Positions 2,537 to 22,207 of a stretch of DNA of 22,933 nt are shown here, piece by piece; positions within the stretch are counted from its first letter, which is position 1, and every line of letters starts with the position of its first letter. The notes under the pieces were generated by a model. The model was not told the origin of the DNA. It did no database searches and was given only the letters and a program-made list of their open reading frames with translations. The stretch comes from a virus: the IMG/VR virus record IMGVR_UViG_3300036820_000647, positions 1-22,933 of that record; one strand, 5' to 3'. A program made the translations under genes and the position numbers.

Positions 2537-4015
2537 TCAAAGTTCCGCGCTGGCGGTGTAGGAGCACATGAAGTAGCCGCCTCCGGTAGCGTTTGGCGTG
2601 CGTTGAGCAAACAGGTGATCGGCCTGAATCTCGGTGTAGCCAAAAGGCAGGGCCGCAAAAGAAACCGCCGTCACGGTATCAGCAAAGGTGCAGGTCGGCG
2701 CCGCACGCATCGGCGCGCCGAAGACCACGATGACCCCACAAGGGGTGGCGTTAGACACGTACCCCATGTAGGACAGCGCCCGCGTCGTGCCCACTTGGTA
2801 GTAGCGCATGCAGAACGACAGTGCGGCGCCGATCGGCGACAGCTCGGGCGGGGGCGGGCTTGAATTGAGCCCGGTCGAGACCCCGGGCGTCACGCGGATG
2901 TCGCACTCGGTGATCTGGACGGTTTTGGTGTTGGCGCCGAAATTGTTGCCGAAGTCGAAGCTGACTTCGAGTCCATTGAAGGACGACGCACTCGCCGAGA
3001 AGGTATAGGCAACCTGCGTCCAGCTGCTGGCGGGGCATGACTGCAAGCTGACCGCGCTGACATCCGTTGTCGCGCCGGACCAGTTATCGACGCTGCCCGC
3101 ATGCTTGACCGTAAGCGCGGGCGTGATCGAGCCACCGCTGCCGTTGTAGACCTGCGCTTGCGCCGTCACCGTCTGGCTGCAATAGCGCGCCGCGATCAGG
3201 CTTTCGATCCGTTGCTTGATGACCAGATCGGTGACCGAGGTCGCGCCGGTCACCTGCAGGCTGTTCTTGGTCGTCAGCCGGCCGCTGGCTTGCGCCCAGG
3301 CAACGCTGGCCCCCGTCGGCACGATGTACCAGCCATCCGGTCCGATCTGCGTCGATGGACCGGCGGTCGTCGTCGCTGTTCCCGACGTGCCGCGCTGCCA
3401 AACATCCATCGCCGGATTGTAACAGCCATTGCGGCTTCCTCCCGGTTCGCCGATCGTCACGGTGCTGCCGGACGCCGTGACGGTGCTGCCGCCGCTCGCC
3501 CCGATGGTGACGGCGCCGCTCAGCCCGTTAACTGTCGTGCCGACCCGGTCGATGATGGTCCACTTGTTGTAGCCGTTCGATTCGATGGCAACATAGCCGT
3601 AAGCGGCGTTGATGACGGCGCTGGCCACGCCGTCGATGAGGTCGGAGCCGGCGGCGGCGAGCGTGATCGTCACCGTCGCCGAGCAGGCGCCGGATTCGTC
3701 GACAACCAACAGCCGCGATCCGGTCGGGAACGTACTGGCCGCAGGCAGCGAGACGGTGCGCGCCGCGGTGATCGTGATATAGGCCACCGTGCGGTCGGTG
3801 GTCAGCGCGGAATAATTACCGTCAGTGACCTGGGTTCTGGTGTTGGTGACAACCTCGGCAAGTTTTGCTGCCGACCAGCCGCCGGCCGTGGCGCCGTCCT
3901 GCACGACAACCCGGTTGGCGGTGGTATCGATGACCATCTCTCCGGCGGCGCCGACAAAAGCGGCGACTTGCGACGACGATCCGCGCCGGTATTGGACTTG
4001 AACTGCTGTTGTCAT
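2537..4015 (-). CDS. Tail fibre protein with Mtd_N-like N-terminus
   Basis: A 492-residue protein. Residues about 5 to 47 (VQVQYRRGSSSQVAAF, then GEMVIDTTANRVVVQDG) match the N-terminal domain of the Bordetella phage major tropism determinant (Mtd_N), used to attach fibres to the tail. The middle is Gly/Ser/Thr-rich beta structure, including VNGLSGAVTIG near residue 162. NPAMDVWQRGT near 200 opens a sugar-binding-like beta domain common in phage fibres. PELSPIGAALSFCMRYYQ from residue 390 is the usual C-terminal signature of such fibres. The ATG at 4015 has GAGGAG six bases before it, nine bases after the hub gene. The role is host receptor binding at the tail tip. The C-terminus is not the C-type lectin of true Mtd, and no reverse transcriptase is nearby. 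Confidence 0.85.
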   Translation of the reverse strand: MTTAVQVQYRRGSSSQVAAFVGAAGEMVIDTTANRVVVQDGATAGGWSAAKLAEVVTNTRTQVTDGNYSALTTDRTVAYITITAARTVSLPAASTFPTGSRLLVVDESGACSATVTITLAAAGSDLIDGVASAVINAAYGYVAIESNGYNKWTIIDRVGTTVNGLSGAVTIGASGGSTVTASGSTVTIGEPGGSRNGCYNPAMDVWQRGTSGTATTTAGPSTQIGPDGWYIVPTGASVAWAQASGRLTTKNSLQVTGATSVTDLVIKQRIESLIAARYCSQTVTAQAQVYNGSGGSITPALTVKHAGSVDNWSGATTDVSAVSLQSCPASSWTQVAYTFSASASSFNGLEVSFDFGNNFGANTKTVQITECDIRVTPGVSTGLNSSPPPPELSPIGAALSFCMRYYQVGTTRALSYMGYVSNATPCGVIVVFGAPMRAAPTCTFADTVTAVSFAALPFGYTEIQADHLFAQRTPNATGGGYFMCSYTASAEL

Positions 4016-4024
4016 CTCGTCTCC

Positions 4025-6190
4025 TCACGTCGTGCCAAAATCGAGGTCGCACTCCACCGCAAGCGCCAAGCTGCCGAAATCGTCACCGGTGGCGGCCGTG
4101 GTCGTCACCAGACCGAAATCCCACGATCCGCCGCTGAGCAGGATCGCCTGCGCCACCGGGTGATCGACGGCCGCGCCGGTCGGCGTGTAGGTGTAGGCGG
4201 TGCAGCTCGACAGCGCCTGCAGACCGCCGCCGAACACATTGAAAGACTGGAATTTCAGATAGAGGGTCTTGCCGACATATTGCGGCGGCAGGTCGTATTC
4301 GAAGATCGCTAAGTCGAGCCGTGCAAATGGCGCACCCGACGCATGCGATCCCACCGCCGTGCCGTAGAGGCCACGATAGAGCGTCGTCAGCGCATAGCAG
4401 TTGGCCGAAGTCAGCGTCGCCGTCTGATAGGACACCAGCTCCGACCCGACGACGCACAAGGTGTTGCCGAGCTGGGCATCGAGAGCGCTGCCGCTCGCCA
4501 GCGCGCCGCCGCTTTCCGCCAGATCGACGGCAATGGCGTCGGACGTATCCGGGTTGAGCCCGCTATAGGATGCCAGCGCAGCCGTAAGCACGCCTTGCCG
4601 CGCCGGCGCGTTGACGGTGCCGATCTGGCTATAGGTTGTGCCGTCAAGCGACAGCCACACCTCGGCGCCGCCCCAGTTCGGATCGGCGACGCCGCCGCCG
4701 CCACCGGAAACCGCAAGCCAGATTTGCGGAGTGCCCCCGACCAGCGCCGACGGCGGCTCGATGATGACCGGCGCATTGACGGAATCGGTTCCGACATTCC
4801 GATTGATCGGATTGTTGCTGACCGGCTGCGTGGCATAGCGCGTCGCCGTCGCGGCGCCCAGCGGGAACTCCTCGGCAGTGACGCTCAAAAAGCCGTTCTC
4901 GTCTTCCTCGATCTCGGTGATGCGGATCGGCGCGTTCGACAGTCCCAGGATGACATCCGACACCGTGACGAGATCCATGGGATCGAGCAGGCAGTATTCC
5001 CATGATAGCCGGAACTTGTAGGTGTTGCGGATATAGACGGCGCGCTGAAGAATGAGCTGCCCGGATATGAGAGCGACATTCTGATCGCAGATCTCGTGTG
5101 CGGTCACGACCGGCGCGATGCGCATACCGTAAAGCTCGATGGCATTTTGGTCGCGCGACTCAACGGTCGTCAGATTGTAGGCGTTATCGCGCTCGGCGAT
5201 CTCCAGACGCCAGACGTTGTAGGCCTCGTACGGATCGGAGCGCGAGACCTGCAGCGGATCTTCATTGCTTTCGATCTTGTAGTCGTCATCCCCCAGATCG
5301 TAGATCGGCGTGATATCGGGGCTGAAGGTGATGCCGTTGCCGGTGATGGCGCTGTCACCATAAGGAATGAAACGCAACAGTCCGCCGGACCAGACCGCCG
5401 CCGTGTTCGTAAGCTGCAGCCATCTTGCCAGGATGCTTGAAGCCTGTTCTTGGTCGACCAGCGCCGGGCTCAATGCCAGGCCGTTGGCGCGGCAATAGGT
5501 TTGATAGGAGGCATCGTTGCCGCCGGTCGGGCTGAACAGCGTCGTTGCGTCAATGCTGCCGCTCGGGAAGCCGACACCGAACTGCGCATTGGTGAGGAAG
5601 TCTTCCACCACCAGCGCCGGGTCGGCATCGACAAAGCCATAACCGCTGCCGCTGCCGGTGGCATCGGAGGAATTGTATTGTAGCTGACCGTAACCGCTCC
5701 CATAGCGAAGGCCCTGGACCTCGAAGTTGTGATTATCGAGGGTGGCGCTGTCGCTGAGGTCGTAATTCTCGGCCGCGACATAAGCGGTGGCCTGATAAGC
5801 GAGCGCCTGCGCGGGATAGGCAGCTTCGAGATAGCTCCAGGGGCTCTGCGGCGTCGAGCCGTTGAACAACGATAGCCCGAGCCCGCTAAGCGTGTAGATC
5901 GATTGCCCCTTCCAAATCTGATTGATGCCGGCAATCGGTCCTTCGCAAAGCGCCATGATGACCGATGCGCTATAGGTATATTCAGTGCTGGCGCCGCCAA
6001 ACAGGCCGCCCTTGCCGCCGCTGCTGCCGCCATGGGTTTGAAAGTCATCGTACCAAATGACGTTCGGCGCGAGCTTGGACAGGCCCCACACCACCGGGAT
6101 CGGCAGCGTGTTGACCGCGGTCTGGATTTGCAGGCCGGTATAATCCGGCGTGGTCGACTGCGCCGACCCGCCACCAAACAGGCCGCTCAT
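4025..6190 (-). CDS. Tail hub/tip protein, Phage-tail_3 type (C-terminal part of GTA gp15)
   Basis: A 721-residue protein starting MSGLFGGGSAQ at an ATG overlapping the peptidase stop by ATGA; the longer start at 6205 is rejected. The N-terminus (TPDYTGLQIQTAVNTLPIPV, then a Gly-rich GGSSGGKGGLFGG loop) is typical of alphaproteobacterial phage baseplate hubs. The middle section with NVWRLEIAERDNAYN, VESRDQNAIELYGMR and a following LDPMDLVTVSD fits the Phage-tail_3 domain. Fibronectin-like beta repeats and GGGGG linkers follow. In the Rhodobacter capsulatus GTA this domain shares one polypeptide (gp15) with a TIM-barrel domain. Here the TIM barrel is absent from this gene and is found instead at 8132 to 10627. 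The likely role is the distal hub carrying the fibre encoded next. Confidence 0.85.
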   Translation of the reverse strand: MSGLFGGGSAQSTTPDYTGLQIQTAVNTLPIPVVWGLSKLAPNVIWYDDFQTHGGSSGGKGGLFGGASTEYTYSASVIMALCEGPIAGINQIWKGQSIYTLSGLGLSLFNGSTPQSPWSYLEAAYPAQALAYQATAYVAAENYDLSDSATLDNHNFEVQGLRYGSGYGQLQYNSSDATGSGSGYGFVDADPALVVEDFLTNAQFGVGFPSGSIDATTLFSPTGGNDASYQTYCRANGLALSPALVDQEQASSILARWLQLTNTAAVWSGGLLRFIPYGDSAITGNGITFSPDITPIYDLGDDDYKIESNEDPLQVSRSDPYEAYNVWRLEIAERDNAYNLTTVESRDQNAIELYGMRIAPVVTAHEICDQNVALISGQLILQRAVYIRNTYKFRLSWEYCLLDPMDLVTVSDVILGLSNAPIRITEIEEDENGFLSVTAEEFPLGAATATRYATQPVSNNPINRNVGTDSVNAPVIIEPPSALVGGTPQIWLAVSGGGGGVADPNWGGAEVWLSLDGTTYSQIGTVNAPARQGVLTAALASYSGLNPDTSDAIAVDLAESGGALASGSALDAQLGNTLCVVGSELVSYQTATLTSANCYALTTLYRGLYGTAVGSHASGAPFARLDLAIFEYDLPPQYVGKTLYLKFQSFNVFGGGLQALSSCTAYTYTPTGAAVDHPVAQAILLSGGSWDFGLVTTTAATGDDFGSLALAVECDLDFGTT

Positions 6191-6645
6191 GGCTTGCTCG
6201 CCCAATAGCTGAAGTATCGCGGCTTGCGAACGGGATCGCTGAGCACGCTGTTATGCGCGATGTCCTCCTCGAAAACGCGGCGGGCCGGGAAATAAGCGTG
6301 CACGATCTTGAGCGGCGCGACGCTTGTCACGATGCCGCCGTGCGAATAGCAGCGGCCGTAGCGGAACACCATGACGTCGCCGGGCTCCGGATTGTCGACT
6401 TCGGCACAGCGCTCGAACACAAAGCCGAGGTAGCGTTCCTCGCTGCGGTGCAGATGCCAGTCGGGCGCATAAGGCCGCGGGTCGAACGGCGCGCACAAGC
6501 CGGTATCGACGAACACGCGGACGATGAGCATGCCGCAGTCGACGCCGACGCCCTTGAGATCGGCGCAGTTGTGGTACGGCGTGCCGATCCAAGATCGCGC
6601 CGCCGTGACGACGGCGCCGCGCTGTGTTGTTGCGATGTCGTGCAT
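6187..6645 (-). CDS. NlpC/P60 cell-wall peptidase of the tail tip (GTA gp14 type)
   Basis: A 152-residue single-domain NlpC/P60 cysteine peptidase of the phage class (TIGR02219-like). Cys37 in GVGVDCGM, His102 in YSHGGIV and a third polar residue His116 in VHAYFP form the expected catalytic set, with WIGTPYHNCADLKG before the Cys. It is probably a virion component that cuts peptidoglycan cross-bridges when the tail tip crosses the cell wall. It therefore differs in role from the M15 lysis enzyme. The ATG at 6645 abuts the stop of the DUF2163 gene with no spacer, and its own end overlaps the hub gene. The order DUF2163, NlpC, hub is that of the GTA and lambda-like L-K-I-J region. Confidence 0.92.
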   Translation of the reverse strand: MHDIATTQRGAVVTAARSWIGTPYHNCADLKGVGVDCGMLIVRVFVDTGLCAPFDPRPYAPDWHLHRSEERYLGFVFERCAEVDNPEPGDVMVFRYGRCYSHGGIVTSVAPLKIVHAYFPARRVFEEDIAHNSVLSDPVRKPRYFSYWASKP

Positions 6646-7521
6646 TTAGACGGCCATCTGCGGCGGCGGCACATAGGGGAAGCCGCGAAAATTTGTGAGA
6701 TTGTTGAACTTGCTCTGGCAGGTGCCGGGGGTGTGATCGCAGCCGGAATAGACCGTGAATGTGTCACCAGGCGCCGGCACGCTTTCCAGCGGATAAAGCA
6801 ACGCCAGCGATACCCCGGCCACGACCGAGCCGACTGTCGCGGTGGCGCCGATATTGACGCCCGACGTGAAAGCGATCGACCCCTGCTGAAAGTTCTGGCT
6901 CGCGCCCGACCAGTTGATAACCGACGCAGTCGACACGCCGCCGACCGCGCCATTGGTGCCATAGGCATTCTTCACCAGCGTGCAGCCGGAATCGTAGAGC
7001 GTGTGCAGGCAGGTCGGCTGATAGACATTGCGCGGCATATCGATGTCGAGCAGCACAAGGTCGGAATTGATCGTGAGCTTGGCGCTGCTACGGCCGATCT
7101 GATCGACGGTGCCGAGCCGGCCTTTGAATAATGTCACCGCACCGATCGCCGTGCCGCCGATGAAGTCCAAGAAGAAAATGCGCTGACGCGTGATTTCGCA
7201 GCCGTCGAATGATCCGTCGCGCAACGCCTGCAGAAACGGCACGCCGCCGCTAATGGTATCCGTGGACCGAGCCGCGACCGTGATCTGTTGCTGATCGACC
7301 TCTAGCCCAACCGAAGCCTTGTACTTGAGGCCGTCGACCAGGACCGAATTGGCAAGATAGGTGCTGCCGTCGTAACTGAACGTTACGTCGACGTTGGTGT
7401 AGCACAATGTCAGGCCGGACAGCATCGCGAACGTGAATGCATCGGCCATGCACAGCGGCGCGTCCGGCACGCTGCGCGCGTTGTTCAGATGAGTGACGAG
7501 CGCAGGGGATGCCGGCTTCAT
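6646..7521 (-). CDS. DUF2163/phage BR0599-family minor tail protein (GTA gp13 type)
   Basis: A 291-residue protein starting MKPASPALVTHLNNARS at an ATG that overlaps the DUF2460 stop (ATGA); an earlier start at 7560 lies inside that gene and is rejected. The N-terminal half holds DAFTFAMLSGLTLCYTNVDV, as in DUF2163. The C-terminal half carries the BR0599 signature: YQPTCLHTLYDSGCTL, YPLESVPAPGD, SGCDHTPGTCQSKF and NFRGFPYVPP. The conserved cysteines in these motifs probably bind a metal or iron-sulfur cluster, as in lambda gpL-type hub-distal proteins; that point is from family knowledge. It links the distal tail ring to the hub. Confidence 0.92.
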   Translation of the reverse strand: MKPASPALVTHLNNARSVPDAPLCMADAFTFAMLSGLTLCYTNVDVTFSYDGSTYLANSVLVDGLKYKASVGLEVDQQQITVAARSTDTISGGVPFLQALRDGSFDGCEITRQRIFFLDFIGGTAIGAVTLFKGRLGTVDQIGRSSAKLTINSDLVLLDIDMPRNVYQPTCLHTLYDSGCTLVKNAYGTNGAVGGVSTASVINWSGASQNFQQGSIAFTSGVNIGATATVGSVVAGVSLALLYPLESVPAPGDTFTVYSGCDHTPGTCQSKFNNLTNFRGFPYVPPPQMAV

Positions 7522-8135
7522 GACTTCACGCTGCGAAATTTCATGCTGTCGAGCTTCCACAGGTTCGACATGAATTCCTCAAAATCGATCTGGTCGTCGA
7601 GAAAGCGGCAGTTGAATGCGTAGGCAAAGTCCGCCGACAGTGCCGTTCCCGCGCCCGGAGCCGCGGTGAACGTCAAGTTATTCGGCGTCGTCAGGCTGTA
7701 GCTCGACACCGACTGCACCGCGCCGTTGAGATAGACATTGGTGATTGTGGTCACCCAGCCGACCGGCTCAAGGAAACCGCCCAGCGAGCGCATCATGGTG
7801 AACGCGGTGGTGCTGCCGTCGCCGGTCGCAAACGCCTGGCCGGTGACCGCGTCATCATCGGGATCGGCGTAGAGAAACGTGCCGAACTGGCCCTGGAGCT
7901 GAAGAAAGAATCCCATCAGGCTCTGCAAGCTCGATGCGCCCAGGCCGGCGAATGCGCTCGCCGCCGAGCTAAGGCCGCTATAGACCGCCTCGAACTCGTA
8001 GAGCGGATAGCTCATGAGCGCGACGCGAACCTCGCGGCCGGAAACGTGTGCCGCCACCCGCGTCGCAAAGCCCGGCTTCTTGTGCCGCGACCAGGTGAGC
8101 CCAGGCAGGGTAGGCAGAAACGGCGGAGCGCTCAT
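7518..8135 (-). CDS. Free-standing DUF2460 distal tail protein (GTA gp12 type)
   Basis: A 205-residue protein starting MSAPPFLPTLPGLTWSRHKK. It contains HVSGREVRVALMSYPLYEFE, a GDGSTTAF loop, NVYLNGAVQS and a C-terminal CRFLDDQIDFEEFMSNLW. All are standard DUF2460 marks (the distal tail ring of GTA-like tails). The ATG overlaps the stop of the preceding TIM-barrel gene (ATGA). The same domain occurs as the last 195 residues of that preceding gene, and both end in the very similar KLRTVRS or KFRSVKS. This is therefore a tandem, diverged duplicate. In the usual GTA order only one such gene follows the tape measure. Confidence 0.9.
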   Translation of the reverse strand: MSAPPFLPTLPGLTWSRHKKPGFATRVAAHVSGREVRVALMSYPLYEFEAVYSGLSSAASAFAGLGASSLQSLMGFFLQLQGQFGTFLYADPDDDAVTGQAFATGDGSTTAFTMMRSLGGFLEPVGWVTTITNVYLNGAVQSVSSYSLTTPNNLTFTAAPGAGTALSADFAYAFNCRFLDDQIDFEEFMSNLWKLDSMKFRSVKS

Positions 8136-10627
8136 GAGCGCACCGTGCGCAATTTCAACGATTGCAGCGCATAGAGTGTCGTCATGAATTCCTCCACGTC
8201 GGCGCTGTCATCATCGAAGCGGCATAGCAGGCACCAATGGAAATCGGCCGAGATGACGGCATCTGCGGCCGGTGCCACAGCGAACATCACGGCCGCCGCG
8301 AATGGGGTGGTATTGATGGTGTAGCCGCCCGACTGCGCCACGCCGTTGACATAGACTGCCGACACCGCACCGAGATTTGCCGGCGTCAGCACAAAATCGC
8401 CGATTGCAACACCGAATGGGAACGAGGTCGATATCCCGTCGCCGATGCCGAGCGGCTGCGCCGCAACAGGCGACAATGTCGGCGGCTCGAACAGGAACGA
8501 AGCGCCCTCGCCCCGACATTGTGCAAAAAAGCCGATGATCGCTTGCAGCTCGCTGTACGGCGCCGCCATGCGCAGCAAGTCGTAATTCAGCTCAATCTGC
8601 CAAAGCGGCGCGACGTATCTGGCCGCGCGCAACTCCCGGCCGGAGACATGCAGCGCCGTCGCGGTCGAAAAGATCGGCGAATGCGTGACCGACCATCCGA
8701 GCGTCGGCACCGATGGAAAGGTCGCATAGGACGGCGGCGCCGGCGGATCATCCGGCACCGGCGTCGCGATGAACGGTCCCTTGCCGCCAAGCCAATTCCC
8801 CGACGCCCAATTGGCTGCGTCGCCCCACACGCCGTCCAGTTGCGGAAACGCCGGGAATGGTCGGGCGTCCCAATTCCAGACCGACATGAACGCGGTCTGC
8901 AGCATCGGCATGCCGCCGCTCGAGGTCTCATTGTTGCCGTCGGTCACCCAGTATTGGTAGATGGCCTGCAACGCGAGCAGATAGAGACTATCGTCGCGCC
9001 GCGGCCAGTAATCATTGGCATCGCTTTGAGCCGGGTCCCAGACCGACCAGAACGGGGTAAAGCTCTCGGTGGAGACCGGATCGAAGAAGACGTTCGGTTG
9101 GTTGGTGGCGCGGTCGCAGGCCGGAAAGCCATATTCTGCAAACGTGATCGACTTCGATTGCGCTATCCACGCGGTAGCGGGGCCGTGCGGCGCCCAGCCG
9201 GAGCCGTCGCCATCGTCATAAATCGCCTGGTGTGGATTATTCCACCACCAGCGCAGTTGCTTGTTGGCGAGAAGTTGCTGATTTGCCGCGTAACTGCTTC
9301 GCGATTGCGCGAGCCGGTCGCCCTGCGGCAACGAAACGCGCAGATCGGTGCCATTCGGATCGAGCCCAATTCCGAGATTGGTGCTGTTGTTGTAATACCA
9401 GTTGAATTTCTCGCCGCCTTCGATGTTCGCCTTGAGATAATCAAGACTGTAGATGGTCGGCTGGCCGCTCAGGCCAAGGCCGCCACAGATTGTCGATGAC
9501 GGCGGCCAGCTTCCGGCAGGCACCGGCTCGAGCCAGTTCTGTGCGTCGAGGCCGCCGTCGCCGGTGGTCCAATCCGACAGCGGTAGATAATTGTCGAATG
9601 AGACGAGATCGATGTTGTCGTGGGCATAAAGCTGATCGAGGTGCGGCCATTGGCCGTTTTCTCCCGGATGCTGATAACCCATCCACGCCGACCAATCGGC
9701 GGAATAACTGATGAGATTGTGCAGGCCGGTGGTGTCTTTGGTCAGGCCGGCGCCGTCGAAGATGCCGCGCACGTCGTCGGATAATTGCATCAAGCCGGCG
9801 ACAAACGGATAGTCCCAGGTCACCTTGCCATCGCCGCCAGTGGTGCCGGCCTTGGTCCAGCCGGGGCCGCGGATCGCCTCCAAGCCGCGCAACTCCGAGC
9901 CGATCAGGAACAGATCGACGCCGCCGGCGACCACGCATAAATTCGCGTAGTGCAGGATCATCCGCCGCCATGTGAAATCGGTCGGCGCGCCGGAATAGGC
10001 GACCGTCAAATTCGTAGCGTCGCGGGTAAACTCCGACGCCGACGCCGCGCCGAGGAAGGCAGTGACGGCCGCCGTCGCAGCGCTCGATATGTCACTGCCG
10101 TTGTAGGTGATGCGACCGCGCCACGGCTGTCCGACAGCCGTCATGAGGAGAAAAGGATAGAACACGACGCGCAGCCCGCGCGATTTCAGATCCAGGATGC
10201 AGCGGACGATCGACTGATCGGACGGCGTGCCGCCATAGATAAAGTCGCCGGCTGCATCGGTTGGAATGGCGATCAGCCCCGGCGACGCCTGCGTAAGACC
10301 CGAGCAACGCCAGACGTCCGAGGCGCCGGATGCCCGCATGAACGAGCCGCCGATATAGGTGGTGGACGGGTAGATCTGGCACGCAGTGATGTCGGTCGCG
10401 TTGCCGAACCACGACACCACCATGGCAACGGTGGTGCAGCCTGGAAATTCAGCCTGCAGGTTGTCGAGCGAGATGGTGTAGTCGGTGACGGCTCCGGCGC
10501 CGCCGGACGCATAGCGGTTGATCGACGTGAAACTCGATTCTGTGACGCGCCGTCCCAGATAAGCAATCGTGTCGTAGGTGAATTCGCCGGTCGACGGCAG
10601 CAGATTGACGCCGTTAATGTAACCCAT
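8132..10627 (-). CDS. GTA TIM-barrel-like domain fused to a C-terminal DUF2460 domain
   Basis: An 831-residue protein. Residues about 60 to 610 resemble the GTA TIM-barrel (glycoside-hydrolase-like) domain. Marks include IVRCILDLKSRGLRVVFYPF, WRRMILHYANLCVVAGGVDL, FLIGSELRGLE, NIDLVSFDNYLPLSDW, SITFAEYGFPACDRATNQPN, and WVTDGNNETSSGG. The Glu residues in GSELRG and FAEYG sit where hydrolase acids lie in TIM barrels. A proline-rich linker (VPDDPPAPPSY) leads to residues 637 to 831, a full DUF2460 domain with HVSGRELRAARY and CRFDDDSADVEEFM. The gene follows the tape measure by nine bases and overlaps the next DUF2460 gene. It would be a virion tail-tip protein that may bind or cut surface or wall glycans. 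In classic GTAs the barrel belongs to gp15, so this is a rearranged layout. Confidence 0.88.
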   Translation of the reverse strand: MGYINGVNLLPSTGEFTYDTIAYLGRRVTESSFTSINRYASGGAGAVTDYTISLDNLQAEFPGCTTVAMVVSWFGNATDITACQIYPSTTYIGGSFMRASGASDVWRCSGLTQASPGLIAIPTDAAGDFIYGGTPSDQSIVRCILDLKSRGLRVVFYPFLLMTAVGQPWRGRITYNGSDISSAATAAVTAFLGAASASEFTRDATNLTVAYSGAPTDFTWRRMILHYANLCVVAGGVDLFLIGSELRGLEAIRGPGWTKAGTTGGDGKVTWDYPFVAGLMQLSDDVRGIFDGAGLTKDTTGLHNLISYSADWSAWMGYQHPGENGQWPHLDQLYAHDNIDLVSFDNYLPLSDWTTGDGGLDAQNWLEPVPAGSWPPSSTICGGLGLSGQPTIYSLDYLKANIEGGEKFNWYYNNSTNLGIGLDPNGTDLRVSLPQGDRLAQSRSSYAANQQLLANKQLRWWWNNPHQAIYDDGDGSGWAPHGPATAWIAQSKSITFAEYGFPACDRATNQPNVFFDPVSTESFTPFWSVWDPAQSDANDYWPRRDDSLYLLALQAIYQYWVTDGNNETSSGGMPMLQTAFMSVWNWDARPFPAFPQLDGVWGDAANWASGNWLGGKGPFIATPVPDDPPAPPSYATFPSVPTLGWSVTHSPIFSTATALHVSGRELRAARYVAPLWQIELNYDLLRMAAPYSELQAIIGFFAQCRGEGASFLFEPPTLSPVAAQPLGIGDGISTSFPFGVAIGDFVLTPANLGAVSAVYVNGVAQSGGYTINTTPFAAAVMFAVAPAADAVISADFHWCLLCRFDDDSADVEEFMTTLYALQSLKLRTVRS

Positions 10628-10636
10628 CGGTCGCGA

Positions 10637-11842
10637 TCACGGATTGACGGCGCGCAACCCGAGATGGGCGCCGCGCTTGACCGCGTCATTGATGGCACGC
10701 AGCATGTGCCTCGAATTGTCATTGAAGAAACGCGCCACGCTTTGCGAATCGAGCGCGGAGACGTTGATGCTCACCGGCGCATGGATTTGCGCTCCCATAT
10801 TCGCTCCGGTGTACGGACCCGAGCCTCGCGCCGCCGGCACGATGGTCTCGCCGGGATGGATGAGAGCGAGGCCGCCGCGCACGACATAGTCCGTGCCGAC
10901 ATCGAAGATCGCCGCGGCCGAGACCGAGGCCTGCGCCGCCGCTGCGGGCCCGGCGGCCGCCGGCCCCATGGTCGGCGCCAGAAAAGCGAAAACGCCGGCG
11001 AAAGCCTGGCCGGCATCGGTCATGATCGCCCTCATGGCTGCCGCGGCGTTGGCCAGAATGCCGGTACTCGACGCCGACTCGTCGGCGGCGGCGCGGGCCG
11101 CCGCACCGGTCGTAGTGGCCGTGGTCTGGGCGATTTCCGCCGCAAGCCATTTCACCACCATCTGCTCGGCCATCTCGATGAACTTGATGGTCAAATCCTC
11201 GAGCACTTTCTTCATCGCCGTCTGCCAGCTCGTGGTTCCCTCCAACAGGCCGCGGATTTGCGAGTTGAACGCACTCGTCAGGCTCGAGAGATAACCGTTC
11301 CACAGCGCTTGCTGCGCGGCGATCGATTGCTCGTCGAGCCGAAGCATGTCGGTGCGGTGCTTGGCCTCCAGTTCCGCGATCCGGTCGATCACGTTTTGGC
11401 GTTGACTGAGGCTCAGGCTGTCGAGGCCTGCTTCCTGTTCCAGGAGAGCGAGCTGCGCCTGGTATTCCTTCTGCGTTTCCGCTTCCAGCAGCGCGAATTT
11501 CTGGTCCTGGGTGATCTGGAACTGGCTGACCTCGGCATCGAGCACAATCTTCTTCTGCGCAGCGCCTTGCTGCAGCACCTTGATCTCGGTGCCGATCGCC
11601 TTGACCTGCGCGGCGCTGCGTTGCGCCGCCGTGCCCATGTCGGCGAAGGCTTTGGCGCATTCGGACAGCTTATCGGCCGGGAGTGCCGCACCGAACGCTT
11701 CGCTCAATCGACCGAGGCTGCTGCCGAGGCCTGCCACCGGCGCGGTTAGTCCGGCAAGCGAATCGCGGACTTGCGCAATGCCGGCCAGCGCATCGTCGGT
11801 CGAAGCGCCGAAGTGAATTTCAACGTCATTGTCGTCAGCCAT
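10637..11842 (-). CDS. Short tail tape measure protein (GTA gp11 type)
   Basis: A 401-residue protein starting MADDNDVEIHFGASTDDALA, with AAGGA-type ribosome site about seven bases before the ATG. Residues about 85 to 180 are Lys/Glu/Gln-rich coiled coil. A central segment (WQTAMKKVLEDLTIKFIEMA, then MVVKWLAAEIAQTTA) and an Ala/Gly-rich stretch may be the membrane-active part. The C-terminal VGTDYVVRGGLALIHPGETI and VPAARGSG is the standard end of this tape-measure family. The protein sets tail length and helps DNA entry; 401 residues implies a short tail compared with lambda's 853. It lies 18 bases after the GT-like ORF and just before the distal tail genes, the expected place. Confidence 0.88.
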   Translation of the reverse strand: MADDNDVEIHFGASTDDALAGIAQVRDSLAGLTAPVAGLGSSLGRLSEAFGAALPADKLSECAKAFADMGTAAQRSAAQVKAIGTEIKVLQQGAAQKKIVLDAEVSQFQITQDQKFALLEAETQKEYQAQLALLEQEAGLDSLSLSQRQNVIDRIAELEAKHRTDMLRLDEQSIAAQQALWNGYLSSLTSAFNSQIRGLLEGTTSWQTAMKKVLEDLTIKFIEMAEQMVVKWLAAEIAQTTATTTGAAARAAADESASSTGILANAAAAMRAIMTDAGQAFAGVFAFLAPTMGPAAAGPAAAAQASVSAAAIFDVGTDYVVRGGLALIHPGETIVPAARGSGPYTGANMGAQIHAPVSINVSALDSQSVARFFNDNSRHMLRAINDAVKRGAHLGLRAVNP

Positions 11843-11860
11843 GGCGTGTCCTTTGCCGTC

Positions 11861-12061
11861 TTATCGGATGGCGCCGCTCGGAAACATCGCGAGGAGTTCG
11901 TGATAGTTTTTCGACTGCCTGGCGCGCGGCTTGTAGCCAAGGTAAGCGGCGGCCATTCGGCGCAGCGGCGGGCATTCCGCCCAAGCGCGGTTGAGATCCT
12001 CGAGAAAGCGGATGTCGACCTGGTCGAGGACCTGATCGCGGGTCCAATGCAGTTCGATCAC
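11861..12061 (-). CDS. Tail assembly chaperone, GT-like second ORF
   Basis: If started at the GTG at 12061, which overlaps the chaperone stop as GTGA, this encodes 66 residues (MIELHWTRDQVLDQVDIRFL onwards, with LRRMAAAYLGYKP later). The same frame is open well upstream. It reads sensibly as protein (GGGERFDAFDWRALVADLV) for about 15 codons before the GTG, inside the upstream gene. This suggests that the true product may be an extension of the chaperone made by frameshift, as with lambda gpG/gpGT. Small W/L-rich proteins of this kind between chaperone and tape measure are usual in GTA-like tails and are thought to guide tape-measure and tail-tube assembly. It ends 18 bases before the tape-measure start. 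Confidence 0.75.
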   Translation of the reverse strand: MIELHWTRDQVLDQVDIRFLEDLNRAWAECPPLRRMAAAYLGYKPRARQSKNYHELLAMFPSGAIR

Positions 12062-12453
12062 GAGATCGGCGACGAGCGCACGCCAGTCGAAGGCATCGAA
12101 GCGCTCGCCGCCACCGTTTCCCCCGCGGTGGCGTCCACCTTTCGGCCGCCGGCCTGTTCGATTACCACCGGCAGCGCCGCAACCAGTTCGGCGATGGTGA
12201 TAGGAAGATCAAAAAATTCGTCGCGGGTCAGGCCGGGATAGGCGCGGCGAAGTCCATGCCAGAGCACCTCGGCCAATGGGATGAGCCGCTCGCCGGACAG
12301 ATTCTCCGCCGTGATTCCGGACAGCTTTGGCACGTAATCGGCAATGGCTAGGATCTGCCGCAAGCTCAGTGGCGCAATATGAAAGTCATGCCCGCCAAGC
12401 CGCACCAGGCGGGCTGTGGTCGGGTCAACCGAATCATCGCGAGTGACGGGCAC
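12058..12453 (-). CDS. Tail assembly chaperone (gpG/gp10-like)
   Basis: A 131-residue protein if started at GTG 12453, which has a perfect AAGGAGG eight bases upstream; this start is preferred. An ATG at 12480 in frame has no ribosome site, and a much longer frame to 12858 runs antisense through the nucleotidyltransferase gene. Key text: VRLGGHDFHIAPLSLRQILA, VLWHGLRRAYPGL, TRDEFFDLPITIAELVAALP, then a low-complexity tail rich in Ala/Ser. This is the pattern of tail chaperones that bind the tape measure during tail assembly. The ancestral upstream neighbour should be the tail tube gene at 13649, now separated by the plus-strand nucleotidyltransferase insertion. The C-terminal region is also open in the -1 frame (see the frameshift candidate). 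Confidence 0.82.
   Translation of the reverse strand: MPVTRDDSVDPTTARLVRLGGHDFHIAPLSLRQILAIADYVPKLSGITAENLSGERLIPLAEVLWHGLRRAYPGLTRDEFFDLPITIAELVAALPVVIEQAGGRKVDATAGETVAASASMPSTGVRSSPIS
12116..12124 (-). promoter_or_regulatory. Candidate -1 frameshift site in the chaperone gene
   Basis: The minus strand reads GGGGGAAAC here. In the chaperone frame the codons are GGG GAA ACG. A one-base backward slip lets the GGG tRNA re-pair perfectly on GGG and leads into GGA AAC GGT GGC, the frame of the ORF ending at 11861. The canonical heptamer GGGAAAC is present but out of phase with the usual X-XXY-YYZ rule, so efficiency is uncertain. Support comes from coding-like sequence in the -1 frame before the GTG of the second ORF, and from the known lambda gpG/gpGT mechanism. 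Confidence 0.35.
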
Positions 12454-12461
12454 CTTTAGAG

Positions 12462-12468
12462 CCTCCTT
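12462..12468 (-). promoter_or_regulatory. Shine-Dalgarno site that sets the chaperone start
   Basis: The minus strand reads AAGGAGG, a perfect anti-16S match, eight bases before GTG 12453. It marks the left limit of the inserted sequence: everything between it and the nucleotidyltransferase start is AT-richer than the phage genes. Confidence 0.7.
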
Positions 12469-12490
12469 CACGTCCAGCATTAAGCTGATT

Positions 12491-12594
12491 TTCAACAGCT
12501 TGGGATGAACTATCATTCGACTGTTGAAGTCATTGATGTTACGCAATAAATTCTGTTTCACCAGTTCAGCATAGAACCTCATGGAACTGTTGAA
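12491..12594. repeat. Three copies of an 8-base CTGTTGAA repeat upstream of the nucleotidyltransferase
   Basis: TTCAACAG lies at 12491 to 12498 (inverted), CTGTTGAA at 12521 to 12528 and again at 12587 to 12594. The first and second form an inverted repeat with a 22-base spacer. The first and third pair over nine bases (TTTCAACAG with CTGTTGAAA). The middle copy overlaps the proposed -35 box and the third ends at the start codon. The spacing suits an operator bound by a dimeric regulator or by the gene product itself; this is inference. Confidence 0.45.
12524..12552 (+). promoter_or_regulatory. Candidate sigma-70 promoter of the nucleotidyltransferase gene
   Basis: TTGAAG at 12524 to 12529 and TAAATT at 12547 to 12552 are separated by 17 bases, the ideal spacing. 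The -10 box ends 42 bases before the ATG at 12595. The surrounding sequence is unusually AT-rich for this window. The promoter would let the gene be expressed from the quiescent prophage, against the late operon. Confidence 0.4.
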
Positions 12595-13620
12595 ATGCTT
12601 TATTTTCAAGAACTTAACGTTGATCAGTGCCGCGAAGTCGTTAACACCCACCAGCGCTATGCGACGTATCGCGCCGCCGCTGACCGGGCAAAGTCCTACC
12701 GGGGTTCCATGGTCTGGAACGAGATCAACGGACGCGACTACTTGGTACGAGGCCACTACGACAAATCCGGTCTTCGGCGCCAAACGTCGCTTGGCGTCCG
12801 GTCCAAGAAGACCGAGGCGATCAAGCACGAATTCGATCGCGCTCGATCCGAAGCGCAAGACGAACTCAAAAATCTGAAGGCCGTTATCGCCAGACAGTCG
12901 GCGATCAATCGCGCTATCGGGTTGGGCCGGGTGCCGTTACTGGGCGCCAGGATTATGCGGGCGCTTGACCAGGCCGGCATGCTCGGCGCCGGTATTCGCA
13001 TCCTCGGCACCAATGCCATGTATGCCTACGAAGCTGCATCGGGCGTGCGCATCGACCCTGGTCTGACCACCAGTGAAGACATCGACCTTCTGTTCGATGC
13101 CCGCGGCGGGCTGACATTCGCAGCCGACGAGGAGATATCGCACCAGTCGCTGTTGCGTCTGCTTCAGAAGATCGATCACAGTTTTCGGCGTTCAAATGAG
13201 ACGTTCCGCGCCAGCAACCGTGATGGCTATCTGGTCGATCTGATCAAACCGCTGCGCAATCCTTCATGGCGCGATGAGAAGCGGCAGCTGAGCGAAGATA
13301 TTGGCGATCTTCTCGCCGTCGAAATCGAGGGCCTTACCTGGCATGAAAGTGCGCCTGCTTTCGAAGCCGTTGCCATCGATGAAAGAGGCGAACCATTCCG
13401 CATTGTTGCGACCGACCCGCGGGTATGGGCGGCCCACAAACTTTGGGTCGCACAACGCCCGGATCGCGAGCCGATCAAACGCCGACGCGATGAAGCACAG
13501 GCGCGCGTCGTTGGCCGGCTGATTGCGGAGTACATGCCGCACCTGCCCTATGACGCGGATCAGTTGCGCATGCTACCCAAGGCCGTGTTCGACCAAGCGG
13601 TACCGTTGTTTCGTACATGA
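12595..13620 (+). CDS. Nucleotidyltransferase-fold protein (NTP_transf_8-like), cargo gene
   Basis: A 341-residue soluble protein. Residues about 130 to 170 hold the nucleotidyltransferase core: RILGTNAMYAYEAASGVR with the G138-T139 turn, then SEDIDLLFD with D162 and D164 as metal-binding acids. D215 in YLVDLIKP fits the third acid. The C-terminal DPRVWAAHKLWVAQRPDREP followed by KRRRDEAQA is typical of NTP_transf_8 (PF12281). The N-terminal 110 residues are basic and helical. Such enzymes may transfer NMP to a protein or RNA; targets are not known to me. The gene lies antisense between tail tube and chaperone, which are adjacent in related phages, and ends 28 bases from the convergent tube gene. 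Only a weak GGAA ribosome site precedes ATG 12595, but no other in-frame start fits. A prophage-encoded defence, toxin or exclusion role is plausible but unproven. Confidence 0.82.
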   Translation: MLYFQELNVDQCREVVNTHQRYATYRAAADRAKSYRGSMVWNEINGRDYLVRGHYDKSGLRRQTSLGVRSKKTEAIKHEFDRARSEAQDELKNLKAVIARQSAINRAIGLGRVPLLGARIMRALDQAGMLGAGIRILGTNAMYAYEAASGVRIDPGLTTSEDIDLLFDARGGLTFAADEEISHQSLLRLLQKIDHSFRRSNETFRASNRDGYLVDLIKPLRNPSWRDEKRQLSEDIGDLLAVEIEGLTWHESAPAFEAVAIDERGEPFRIVATDPRVWAAHKLWVAQRPDREPIKRRRDEAQARVVGRLIAEYMPHLPYDADQLRMLPKAVFDQAVPLFRT

Positions 13621-13648: not shown

Positions 13649-14389
13649 TTATTCGCTGAGGCTGATGGTCCCAATGTTGTTCGAGGCGTCGGCGATGGCC
13701 TGAAAGTCGAACTCGGCCACAGTGAATTTCTGGTTCGAGAACGGCAGCGACAGTTTTGGCGAAACGCAGGCATTGAGCTTCACCAGTAGGTCTTTGCTGA
13801 CGCCGAAGTAACTGAACGTTTCTTTGAGCGAAATCTCGAACATCGGCAGCGGGCCGGTGAGCTGGTTGGTCAGGCTGATCTTGTTGCCCGATGCGACCGT
13901 GTAGCTGTAATAGATCAAGACCGCGGTGCTATTGTCGGCCGAGTCGAAGCTGTAGACCCCGCTCGCCACGCTGTACTGGCCCTGCGTCGGTGAAGACGCG
14001 ACCGGCGAAAGTTGTGCGCCTGTCGTGGCATAGAACACGCCATAATCCTCGACGAAGCCCGAACTGTTGGTGACGGTGACAGATCCGGACGCGACGGTGT
14101 CGCTCTCTCCGGTCGTCATCTCCAGCATGCTGTTGGCGGTCAGGGTCTGGCCGAGGAAAAGATTGTTGATCTGGGTTGCCTGCAGGCGCGCGAATTTAGC
14201 CTTGCCGGTAATCTTGAACTCGCCGCCGCCGGCAGCGACCGCCATGTTGTATTGCCCGAGCAGGGTCTCGATCTTACGATCGAAGTCGAGCGAGACATCC
14301 TGCAGGGTGCCGAGGAGGCATGGCGGTGTACCGGTCACGTCGGTGCGTTTGCCGATCAGGGTGCCGCTGCCGAAGGCGAATTGGGTCAT
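13649..14389 (-). CDS. Major tail tube protein
   Basis: A 246-residue protein starting MTQFAFGSGTLIGKRTDVTG from ATG 14389, with AAGGAG nine bases upstream. The segments LQDVSLDFDRKIETLLGQYN and EFKITGKAKFARLQATQINN are standard for the tail tube family found with GTA-like tails. TGPLPMFEISLKETFSYFG and a beta-rich end support this. Residues about 112 to 165 (GVFYATTGAQLSPVASS, GQYSVASGVYSFDSAD, VLIYYSYT) form an added beta module. The same kind of module is present in the connector protein at 16945. The protein polymerises into the tail tube through which DNA passes. Its position between tail terminator and chaperone is as expected, apart from the inserted nucleotidyltransferase. Confidence 0.88.
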   Translation of the reverse strand: MTQFAFGSGTLIGKRTDVTGTPPCLLGTLQDVSLDFDRKIETLLGQYNMAVAAGGGEFKITGKAKFARLQATQINNLFLGQTLTANSMLEMTTGESDTVASGSVTVTNSSGFVEDYGVFYATTGAQLSPVASSPTQGQYSVASGVYSFDSADNSTAVLIYYSYTVASGNKISLTNQLTGPLPMFEISLKETFSYFGVSKDLLVKLNACVSPKLSLPFSNQKFTVAEFDFQAIADASNNIGTISLSE

Positions 14390-16944: not shown

Positions 16945-17781
16945 TCACATTCCCACCACGCTGCGGTACGGATCGAGCGAGCCGCGGACAAAATCCGGCA
17001 TGTCTTTGAGGCTGTACGACGCTGTTTGCTGGCCCTGCACCGTTTGCGCGCTCTGCCCGACACGGGTGCGGTAGCGGTAGCGCTCCGCCACCCATTCGAT
17101 GCAGGCATTGTTGATCGCGGCTGGAATGAAGCCGTAGGAGATCAGCACGCCGGCGCCGGCATCGGCCGCGGCGAAGGTATAGACGCCGCCCGATACATTA
17201 TATTGGCCCGCGCTGGGAGCGCCGGCCACCGCCGCCACCGCCGCGCCGTCGGCGTAAGTGACGCCGGCATCGCTCGCCCAGGGGCCGAACGGCGCGGCGG
17301 CCGTCACCGCATAAGGGCCGGGCACCGCCGGGACTGCCGCGGCTTCGTTCTCGACCGCATAGCCCGCGGTGTAATCCACCAGCACGTTCTGCCGGCCGTT
17401 GCGATAAAAGGTATGGAACACATCGAGCGCCTGCGGCCGGCCGGGCGGCAGACCGTCCCAACGCTCGACCAGATAGCCCTTCGCCCAGGGCGTGCCGGCG
17501 GCGGGTATCGGTGCCGCGGAAATCGAGGCGCGATCAATCACCAGCGACGACACCGCCAGCACCGGATAATGACGCAGGTAAAGCCGCGTTTTGCCGTTGC
17601 CGTCGAGCCGTTCGACGAACAGGTGCGGCATGAGCGCCGGCCGGCCGAGATAGGCGGTGATCGCGCCGCTCACGTCGGTGATCAACCGCGCGATCAGCGC
17701 GTCGTCGGACGAGCCGATACCACTCGAACCTGAGAGCCAGGCTTTGATGTCGGCAAGCGCCGCGAGGTCGGATGCAGCCAT
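16945..17781 (-). CDS. Head-tail connector, HK97 gp6-like
   Basis: A 278-residue protein starting MAASDLAALADIKAWLSGSS. The first 140 residues (DDALIARLITDVSGAITAYL, GKTRLYLRHYPVLAVSSLVI, LVDYTAGY) and the last 60 (INNACIEWVAERYRYRTRVG, SYSLKDMPDFVRGSLDPYR) make the helical gp6-like connector that rings under the portal. Residues about 150 to 220 are an insertion: a Pro/Ala-rich linker, then a beta module (GVTYADGAAVAAVAGAP, GQYNVSGGVYTFAAAD, VLISYGF). That module resembles the one in the tail tube. ATG 17781 lies four bases after the stop of the small upstream gene; a longer frame overlapping that gene is rejected. Confidence 0.85.
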   Translation of the reverse strand: MAASDLAALADIKAWLSGSSGIGSSDDALIARLITDVSGAITAYLGRPALMPHLFVERLDGNGKTRLYLRHYPVLAVSSLVIDRASISAAPIPAAGTPWAKGYLVERWDGLPPGRPQALDVFHTFYRNGRQNVLVDYTAGYAVENEAAAVPAVPGPYAVTAAAPFGPWASDAGVTYADGAAVAAVAGAPSAGQYNVSGGVYTFAAADAGAGVLISYGFIPAAINNACIEWVAERYRYRTRVGQSAQTVQGQQTASYSLKDMPDFVRGSLDPYRSVVGM

Positions 17782-17785
17782 GGTC

Positions 17786-18004
17786 TCAGTTCTCCGCTGA
17801 CCTTTTCCTGGCGGGCGTTCTGCCACGCCGCGGCGTGCTGGCGCCGCCGCCCGCCTTGACCGCGATCTCGACCTGGACGAAGCCGAAGCATTCGATCAAC
17901 AGTGCGCCGACCTCGGGTTCGACCTCGTAGATGCCGCCGCGCGGCGTAATCGCGACGCCGGCAACGCACGGGTCGCCGACCCCGTCCGGGGCTTTGAGTT
18001 TCAT
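17786..18004 (-). CDS. Small head-associated protein, function unknown
   Basis: A 72-residue protein starting MKLKAPDGVGDPCVAGVAIT with GAGG seven bases before ATG 18004. The middle (RGGIYEVEPEVGALLIECFG) looks like a small beta domain, and the C-terminus is basic and disordered (PRRGRTPARKRSAEN). Small proteins of this shape often lie between capsid and connector genes in alphaproteobacterial phages and may decorate or stabilise the head; this is by position. It is followed after four bases by the connector gene. Upstream, 1.2 kb of foreign-looking sequence separates it from the capsid gene. Confidence 0.7.
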   Translation of the reverse strand: MKLKAPDGVGDPCVAGVAITPRGGIYEVEPEVGALLIECFGFVQVEIAVKAGGGASTPRRGRTPARKRSAEN

Positions 18005-19173: not shown

Positions 19174-20748
19174 CTACCCCGCCGCGATATTGGCAATCAC
19201 CGTCAGGGACGGCGGGAAATAGTGCTGCAGCACCTCGTCGGCGTAAACGCCGGTCTCGTAGCGGCGGGCCCGCGGCGGCCATTCGATCTGATAGTAGTCC
19301 TGCCGGGTGCGGATCTGCACGACATTGCCGACATTGGACAACGGATAGGGCAAGGTGCGCGCCGTCATCAGCACGGTGCCGGCCGGCATGTTTGGATGCA
19401 CGCGGATGTCGATGGTCTTCGGCCCGGCCATCGAGAACTTGTTGAGGTAGGTGCGCACCATGACGCCGCCGCCCAACGCGCCCTGGTCGCTTTCGAACAC
19501 GAAGCGCTGCGCGGCATTGGCGTTGCCGGCGAGGATCTTGGTCGACAGATCGTTGGCGACCTGCGAGCCGACCCACATGGTGTCCGGCGACAGCCGATAA
19601 TTATCCCAGCGGTTCTTCAGGGCGGCGTCGATCTCGACCACGCCGCCGGCGCCGTCGCCGGTCAGCGTCGAGCCGGTCCCGGCGCTGCCGGTCGCGAGGT
19701 ACTGGACGTAGGCGTTCGAACCCGACTTGAAGGCCTGATAGAGCAGGCCGTCGAACACCAGCGCGTTGGTTGAGTTGTCGCTCGATCCCAAAGAGGCTGC
19801 GGTCTGCGTGCCGGCAGCATTGGCGGTGATCACCAGCGAATTGATGGTGGTGATGGCGCCCAGCACTTCCGAGCCCGCCGCGCCCCAGAACCAGGCGTAG
19901 CCCATGGCACCGCTGACCGAAGCAACGGTTGCGGCAATCGAGCCGGCAGTGCCGGAGCTGATCGAGGCGGTGGCATTCGCCGACTTGCCGGCGGCGCCGC
20001 CGCCGAACGTGTCGGAAGAGCCATCGGCATTGCTGCGCGTGATCGCACCTTGAATGCCAGCGGTGACGCTGCCGTTGACAATGCCGTCGAGCGCGAGCGC
20101 AACGCAGATCACGCTATAGGGGCTGGCACTCGCGGTGAGGCTGCCGCCGGAGGTCGACGGCGCCAGCGACGGTGTCGGCGTGGTGCCGAGCGGCACCGAG
20201 GTGTTGCCGCCGAGAATGAGCAACTCCTCGCCGAGCATGCAGGCTTCGAGCCCGATCTTGGCGCCGATCGCCTTGACGTCATCGAAACCCATGCCGGCAT
20301 ATTGCGCTTCGAAATCGACCGATGTCTCGATGCCGATGCCCTTATAGGCGGCACTGTAATCCTGCGTCGTCACCGCCTGCACGCCGCCGCGATTGCCGCC
20401 GGAAACGCCGATGCGGAGCCCCGTGGTGTTGACGCCGGTCACGGCGCGCCAATTGGCCTGGATGCCGCCTTTGCCGGAGACGCGCGGGATCTCATTGCGC
20501 AGTGGCGTGAGCAGCGGATAGACGAATTTCGCGCCGGTCTCGAGGTCGTAATACGTCAAACCCGAGGTGGGCGACGTCGATTCCGAAAATGTGCTCTTGG
20601 CGAGCGGATCGCCCGGCATCGGATTGGCGTGCGCCTTCTCGATCTCGCGCAAAAAGCTGCCGGCGCCGGTGAGCGCGGCGTCGTAATCCTGGACGCTGCG
20701 CGCCAGGGCCGACTTGGCAATAATATGCTGCAGATTAGGCTGATACAT
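19174..20748 (-). CDS. Major capsid protein
   Basis: A 524-residue protein starting MYQPNLQHIIAKSALARSVQ at ATG 20748, with a GGGAACG ribosome site; a start at 20793 adds an unlikely leader. The N-terminal third (NPMPGDPLAKSTFSESTSPT, LTYYDLETGAKFVYPLLTPL, RNEIPRVSGKGGIQANWRAV) and the end (TYLNKFSMAGPKTIDIRVHP, ARTLPYPLSNVG, WPPRARRYETGVYADEVLQH) fit the capsid family of this phage type. The middle (about 200 to 340) is a Gly/Ser/Ala-rich Ig-like insertion with GYAWFWGAAGSEVLGAITTI. It follows the prohead protease, as in HK97-like heads. The assignment rests on length, position and recalled family text. Confidence 0.8.
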   Translation of the reverse strand: MYQPNLQHIIAKSALARSVQDYDAALTGAGSFLREIEKAHANPMPGDPLAKSTFSESTSPTSGLTYYDLETGAKFVYPLLTPLRNEIPRVSGKGGIQANWRAVTGVNTTGLRIGVSGGNRGGVQAVTTQDYSAAYKGIGIETSVDFEAQYAGMGFDDVKAIGAKIGLEACMLGEELLILGGNTSVPLGTTPTPSLAPSTSGGSLTASASPYSVICVALALDGIVNGSVTAGIQGAITRSNADGSSDTFGGGAAGKSANATASISSGTAGSIAATVASVSGAMGYAWFWGAAGSEVLGAITTINSLVITANAAGTQTAASLGSSDNSTNALVFDGLLYQAFKSGSNAYVQYLATGSAGTGSTLTGDGAGGVVEIDAALKNRWDNYRLSPDTMWVGSQVANDLSTKILAGNANAAQRFVFESDQGALGGGVMVRTYLNKFSMAGPKTIDIRVHPNMPAGTVLMTARTLPYPLSNVGNVVQIRTRQDYYQIEWPPRARRYETGVYADEVLQHYFPPSLTVIANIAAG

Positions 20749-20921
20749 GATGTCGTTCCCGTCGTTGGTTGGTTGGTGGCGTCGATTGTTCACTCATCAT
20801 TTCGGAGCGGCGCCAGGCGTCGAATCCGAAAATTCTTAACCGGCAGACCGCGATCAGCGAGCCCCGGGCCCTTGCTTCGCTCGGCCCGCATGACGACGAT
20901 CAGGCGGAGATCGCGTTACTC

Positions 20922-21953: not shown

Positions 21954-22207
21954 CGTGCACTCCTGTTTGGATGTTTGCGGCGCGAGATTGCAGCCAAGGA
22001 ATTCGAAAGCGCTTATGCCCATTGTGAGATTTCGCGCCCACCTTTCGAGCGAGCAGCGGGAAGCGAAGGTCACGGGCAATGCTATAAGGTCGTCAGAGCC
22101 GCGGAGCGGTTCCCCACCGACGAGGTCATGAGCGCGGTCGCAAATGCAAAATGCTCAACCGCGAATGGGCCAGGCTCGAAGCGACAGCCTGGTAGCGACA
22201 CCGTCGT

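Follow-up and report, generated by a model that had tools for sequence, protein, structure and literature searches.

The locus described here raises the question of how a TIM barrel of the kind found in GTA-type megatrons came to be attached to a distal tail protein (Dit), next to a hub that lacks it, and what it might do there. The window, i.e. the whole 22,933-base viral contig analysed in this work, comes from a soil phage, probably with alphaproteobacterial hosts. We propose, with a probability of roughly 0.65, that the protein encoded at 8132..10627 is a Dit with an N-terminal GH113-like glycosidase barrel, which was more probably gained on a duplicated Dit than lost from a megatron.

Gene content of the window

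The tail genes considered below are all encoded on the (-) strand:

2537..4015 (-): tail fibre with Mtd_N domain (profile matches)
4025..6205 (-): barrel-less megatron-like hub, with adhesin-like, central (Phage-tail_3) and fibre-binding (Rcc01698_C) parts
6187..6645 (-): NlpC/P60-type tail peptidase (weak matches to TIGR02219 and CHAP/NlpC)
6646..7560 (-): gp13-type baseplate hub protein (TIGR02218; profile matches)
7518..8135 (-): free DUF2460 distal tail protein, 205 aa (Pfam, E 1.9e-38)
8132..10627 (-): barrel-Dit fusion, 831 aa (Pfam, NCBIfam, AF2 model, structure matches)
8135..8719 (-): C-terminal DUF2460 (Dit) domain of the fusion (Pfam)
8783..10618 (-): barrel domain of the fusion, approximately residues 4-615 (model and alignments)
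~9134-9136 (-): codon of Glu498 of the fusion (model and alignments)
~9893-9895 (-): codon of Glu245 of the fusion (model and alignments)
10637..11842 (-): short tape measure protein (TMP), 401 aa (phrog_2854, E 7.6e-16)

The TMP gene adjoins the fusion gene immediately upstream, while the free DUF2460 gene lies immediately downstream, the two ORFs overlapping by 4 bases, and is followed by gp13, NlpC and the hub. The barrel gene is therefore located four genes upstream of the hub and not five positions, as given in a preliminary description of this DNA, in which the ordinary DUF2460 protein (7518-8135) that persists beside the fusion went unmentioned. No tRNA was found in the window, and a search for direct repeats at the fusion junction revealed nothing notable.

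Elsewhere in the window, the head-tail adaptor ORF (16945-17826, (-)) matches phrog_8234 with its C-terminal residues 166-233 and the ORF in the tail-tube position (13649-14389, (-)) matches it over the full length; an inserted beta domain (GQYxVxxGVYxF...) is seemingly common to both. The 539-aa protein encoded at 19174-20793 (-), from PHROG family 13692, is by its position probably the major capsid protein, and its gene adjoins a head-protease-like ORF (20922-22079). At the contig end, a TylF-type methyltransferase (22208-22933, (-)) is possibly an accessory or host gene.

Domain composition of the fusion protein and of the hub

The domain search agreed with the preliminary description in finding a TIM-barrel/DUF2460 fusion at 8132-10627 on the (-) strand: the Pfam family GTA_TIM (PF13547) matches residues 219-595 (E 2.6e-100, 336 bits versus a cut-off of 27) and DUF2460 (PF09343) matches residues 637-830 (E 1.3e-29, 103.5 versus 30.4 bits). 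The barrel extends N-terminally of the Pfam match, with residues 4-364 corresponding to residues 214-559 of the megatron in the NCBIfam model NF048004 and PHROG 4271 spanning residues 4-615. The 831-aa ORF can be divided into the barrel (~4-616), a linker (~616-634) and DUF2460 (637-830). The barrel is the complete equivalent of the "peripheral domain" of the GTA and roseophage megatrons, which in RcGTA comprises residues 230-744 (PMC7296036). The linker is rich in proline (PFIATPVPDDPPAPPSY), as had been noticed earlier. The Dit motifs SGRE, GDG and the C-terminal CRF-DD-EEFM are present in both fused and free Dits. With both the barrel and the Dit domain complete in one ORF, the fusion is real, and since its layout is conserved in more than 100 loci (see below), it results neither from chance nor from misassembly.

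The hub was likewise found to be as described: Pfam matched Phage-tail_3 and Rcc01698_C in the protein encoded at 4025-6205, and no barrel. It aligns to the megatron on either side of the peripheral domain and not to the domain itself, with residues 7-152 corresponding to megatron residues 39-188 in NF048004. The hydrophobic N-terminus of the megatron (~50 aa) is missing both in the fused-type and in the barrel-less hubs, where a median of 10-12 residues precedes the first hub domain. In NF048004, the model by which a megatron is recognized as a single protein with more than 800 bits, the fusion scored 418 and the hub 155, from two separate genes.

Fold of the barrel and its putative active site

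An AlphaFold2 model of the fusion was built from 89 natural relatives (pLDDT 87, pTM 0.75); its confidence is lowest in residues 590-596 and in the linker, where residues 615-628 fall below pLDDT 50. Residues 1-627 of the model align to residues 215-957 of the R4C megatron (8gtc_M; Rcc01698 in RcGTA) with Z 34.3 and 35% identity, the homology extending across the entire barrel. Residues 3-616 align to the GH113 beta-mannanases, including AaManA and BaMan113A, with Z 22-24, followed by GH5 and other families with Z of at most 14.5. The C-terminal domain matched the R4C Dit (8gtc_G) in Foldseek (E 3.8e-9, TMt 0.65), and the sequence profile of the fusion retrieved from the PDB the Dits of R4C (5e-9) and RcGTA (5e-7) as well as the megatrons, but no GH113 chain. 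The GH113 likeness of the barrel comes from structure comparison and profile-profile comparison only. The barrel has the same fold as the GH113 enzymes, but differs from them in its large insertions, in an identity of only 16-21% and in a Pfam GH113 score of 20.2, below the cut-off of 27, which among its relatives only those in loci L049 (33.4) and L169 (31.3) exceed.

In the model, Glu245 directly follows strand beta-4 (239-244) and Glu498 is located within strand beta-7 (494-499), where enzymes of clan GH-A carry the acid/base and the nucleophile. Judging from the model, the domain is a GH-A barrel with Glu at the catalytic positions of both strands. Both occur without exception in the fused barrels (129 of 129) and in those of megatrons (46 of 46; 175 sequences in all), and numerous polar and aromatic residues around them are also invariant in these two distant clades. 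The GH113 enzymes share the conserved beta-4 Glu and also possess a beta-7 Glu. According to hhalign, the IGSEL motif of Glu245 pairs with the invariant IGTEL (the GTE motif) of GH113; the local alignment stops before beta-7, and the beta-7 Glu was matched to GH113 by position only. The fold and the invariant Glu pair favour the prediction that the barrel is catalytic on a mannan-like or another beta-glycan, and make the earlier suggestion of a glycan-acting decoration of the distal tail plausible; a mannan-like substrate is our guess.

Distribution of the fusion

The layout TMP, barrel-Dit, Dit, gp13, NlpC, barrel-less hub, fibre is shared by ~140 distinct loci from IMG/VR contigs and Hyphomicrobiales genomes. 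The first IMG/VR scan with the fusion yielded 73 relatives, and further scans brought the fused loci to 147, a few of which were fetched twice. The series TMP-Dit-gp13-NlpC-hub is common to three layouts, with the barrel in the hub and one Dit (69 loci), with no barrel and one Dit (90 loci, including elements of Acinetobacter, Herbaspirillum and Brevundimonas), or with the barrel on a Dit (147 loci); these counts, for which barrel or hub sequences served as search seeds, do not amount to an unbiased census. Among the 110 fused loci that have gp13 and the hub, none carries the barrel in the hub and 107 possess a second, free Dit. This number includes L006, in which the free DUF2460 and gp13 share one 511-aa frame (9876-11408), due to either a fusion or a frameshift. 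No locus among those compared has the barrel in both the hub and a Dit. In L049, L169 and L203 (the latter two near-identical, hence two distinct elements) the lone Dit bears the barrel, which indicates that the pairing of fused and free Dits is not obligatory. L049 was also considered as a case of barrels on both Dits; this was ruled out, as it encodes one barrel-bearing Dit (9998-13468) with two CBM-like loop inserts and no second DUF2460.

In one GTDB scan the fused form was found only in Hyphomicrobiales or in unplaced alphaproteobacterial or proteobacterial bins; the taxa include Methylobacterium, Beijerinckia, Methylocella, Methylocapsa, Rhodoblastus, Roseiarcus and Xanthobacteraceae bins. 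The barrel is present in 37 of 385 sampled alphaproteobacterial genomes, with a clear fused-type frame only in the centre genome of the sample; the other frames are nearly all megatron-sized, and a few are short or truncated. In the family of Beijerinckia mobilis the barrel occurs in 155 of 199 genomes, mostly in megatron-sized frames, and in at least ~16 genomes the frames measure 750-860 aa and show the long barrel span that characterizes the fused form. Methylobacterium tarhaniae has one fused-size and one megatron-size barrel gene in separate places. Among the cultured phages of INPHARED, 69 records matched the fusion, none over 80% of the query; each of the 12 examined has the barrel in one large gene, which can be recognized as a megatron in 11 of them and is a diverged frame of 2,030 aa in the jumbo phage LucasX. 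The fused form was found in none of the plasmids searched.

Some phages with a J-like hub (L168:10001-12574 and L071:10001-12472; also Methylocella silvestris TVC, L118) carry the barrel joined to a phrog_1302 domain, and the gene in question follows the hub and lies close to the fibre gene. The annotation of phrog_1302 is "distal tail protein", and its reading as a second Dit family relies on the phrog_1302 profile match alone; the L168 C-terminus, of which only two close relatives were found, gave a model with a pLDDT of 36.5.

The preliminary description had left room for the arrangement to be common and already described. Common it is (>100 loci), whereas we found no description of a barrel-Dit fusion in the part of the open literature that was searched; public domain databases may list the architecture. 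Apparently, then, the arrangement is conserved, widespread in one host group and undescribed, its parts themselves being known. A parallel is provided by the evolved Dits (evoDits) from siphophages of Gram-positive bacteria, which likewise combine a Dit with a sugar-directed module, by which the phage copes with surface polysaccharide (PMC10688798, PMC7291167). However, evoDits carry carbohydrate-binding modules within the Dit loops, which the fusion lacks, whereas the fusion carries an entire enzyme-like barrel at the N-terminus and retains a plain Dit paralogue; in L049 the barrel is combined with loop inserts. PHROG 2913, which is matched by plain DUF2460 proteins, bears the name "glycoside hydrolase"; this label, like the PSI-BLAST remark in the R4C paper, may stem from barrel-Dit fusions.

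Evolutionary history of the barrel, the Dits and the hubs

In the careful tree of the Dits, those of the fused type (100/99) and those of the free type (100/98) form sister clades, joined with 97/89 support, so that one duplication preceded their spread; according to the trees, the two are ancient paralogues. The Dits of L049 and L169 nest within the free-type Dits, and by this topology their barrel represents a secondary move, i.e. a derived case. In the barrel tree the megatron barrels (1.0) are set apart from the Dit-borne ones, and the L071 barrel nests inside the Dit-borne group (0.89), which would make the barrel on the phrog_1302-annotated family a derived case as well.

GTA/R4C clusters and the window share the same neighbours (TMP, Dit, gp13, NlpC, hub), but the megatron has its barrel inserted between the adhesin-like and central hub domains and is accompanied by a single Dit, whereas in the window the barrel is attached to the N-terminus of one Dit out of two, and the hub has neither a barrel nor the hydrophobic N-terminal stretch. 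The preliminary description explained this by a barrel that had left the hub gene, and in such a scenario a GTA-type megatron would have lost its barrel to a Dit copy within the same cluster. The matches of hub and fusion to NF048004, which jointly cover most of the megatron, are in line with this scenario, and a grouping of the fused-type hubs with the megatrons is not rejected by the AU test (p 0.271). Nonetheless, in the unconstrained hub tree the megatrons split off alone on a long branch (100/100), while the fused-type hubs appear as a single clade (98/95) among the barrel-less hubs; in the Dit tree, too, the Dits of the fused lineage are placed with those of barrel-less phages. The fused-type hubs also share with the barrel-less hubs the absence of the megatron N-terminus. 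As these hubs are nearer to barrel-less phage hubs than to megatrons, we regard the departure of the barrel from the hub as unsupported and excision from a megatron as unlikely. It is more probable, judging by the trees, that the lineage gained the barrel on a duplicated Dit; given the outcome of the AU test, such a gain is favoured only.

The Brevundimonas phage vB_BpoS-Strzyga (L215), too, combines a barrel-less hub with a Dit whose N-terminus is considerably extended. Its hub is among the nearest relatives of the fused-type hubs in a quick tree, a point on which the careful tree gives no resolution. However, its single Dit (L215:7366-9816) has a ~540-aa extension with a glycine-rich ALK_LTK_GRD domain and without the barrel.

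It is tempting, if speculative, to regard the barrel as a mobile glycosidase cassette of tail tips, which is integrated in the hub in GTAs and was joined several times to distal tail proteins (to a duplicated Dit, to one of the unfused type and to a member of a second Dit family). In the lineage of the window, the ring would then be a mixed one of armed and plain subunits, i.e. of the two ancient paralogues, in keeping with the threefold hub.

Possible arrangement in the baseplate and function

The Dits of RcGTA and R4C form hexameric rings below the tube and over a threefold hub. In RcGTA both termini of the Dit touch the baseplate, and odd and even subunits differ in their contacts to the hub and megatron (PMC7296036). 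The DUF2460 domain of the fusion would dock beneath the tail tube like other Dits. If its N-terminus points to the baseplate, as it does in RcGTA, the Dit-borne barrel should hang beside the hub, kept by the flexible linker approximately at the site of the megatron's peripheral domain. There it would bind, and probably cleave, a mannan-like or other beta-linked glycan of the capsule or exopolysaccharide, and might help the tail tip to reach the outer membrane. With a free Dit encoded by the next gene, a mixed ring with three barrels, or two rings, is as possible as a ring of six barrels. The fused and free Dits probably share one ring, with three subunits each to match the threefold hub, or make two rings; we slightly favour the mixed ring. 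An attractive reading is that alternating fused and free Dits would present three barrels, as in the megatron trimer.

The fused DUF2460 could instead be an anchor only, with the entire ring built by the free Dit, the better conserved of the two (61% versus 48% in median identity, and ahead in 93% of the locus pairs). We consider this improbable, as the full set of Dit motifs, also that of the C-terminus, is retained in the fused domain, and in L049, L169 and L203 a barrel-bearing Dit is the sole Dit found. A barrel with a binding or structural but no catalytic role, both in the megatron and on the Dit, is a rather unlikely alternative to the predicted glycosidase, but one with arguments of its own: the RcGTA authors list megatron sites among oligosaccharide-binding sites (PMC7296036), the domain also helps to hold a tailspike according to a 2026 preprint, in which its function is called unknown (PMC13420450), and the GH113 score of the window fusion is under the cut-off. 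Against such a role stands the invariance, in two distant clades, of both Glu at clan GH-A catalytic positions and of the polar and aromatic residues around them.

Implications

In the same preprint, function is given as unknown for the TIM barrel of the megatron and for the insertion domains of hub and Dit (PMC13420450). The role of the peripheral barrel is an open question of the GTA field that phages with a Dit-borne barrel make accessible to testing, since in them the module is separable and can be expressed, assayed and removed with the hub untouched. The invariant pair at the catalytic positions and the GH113-like fold lead to a concrete prediction, i.e. glycan cleavage, with candidate substrates. 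The locus further shows that one sugar-directed module has been reused at two different sites within a shared baseplate plan, and that after the duplication of a Dit only one of the copies may be decorated.
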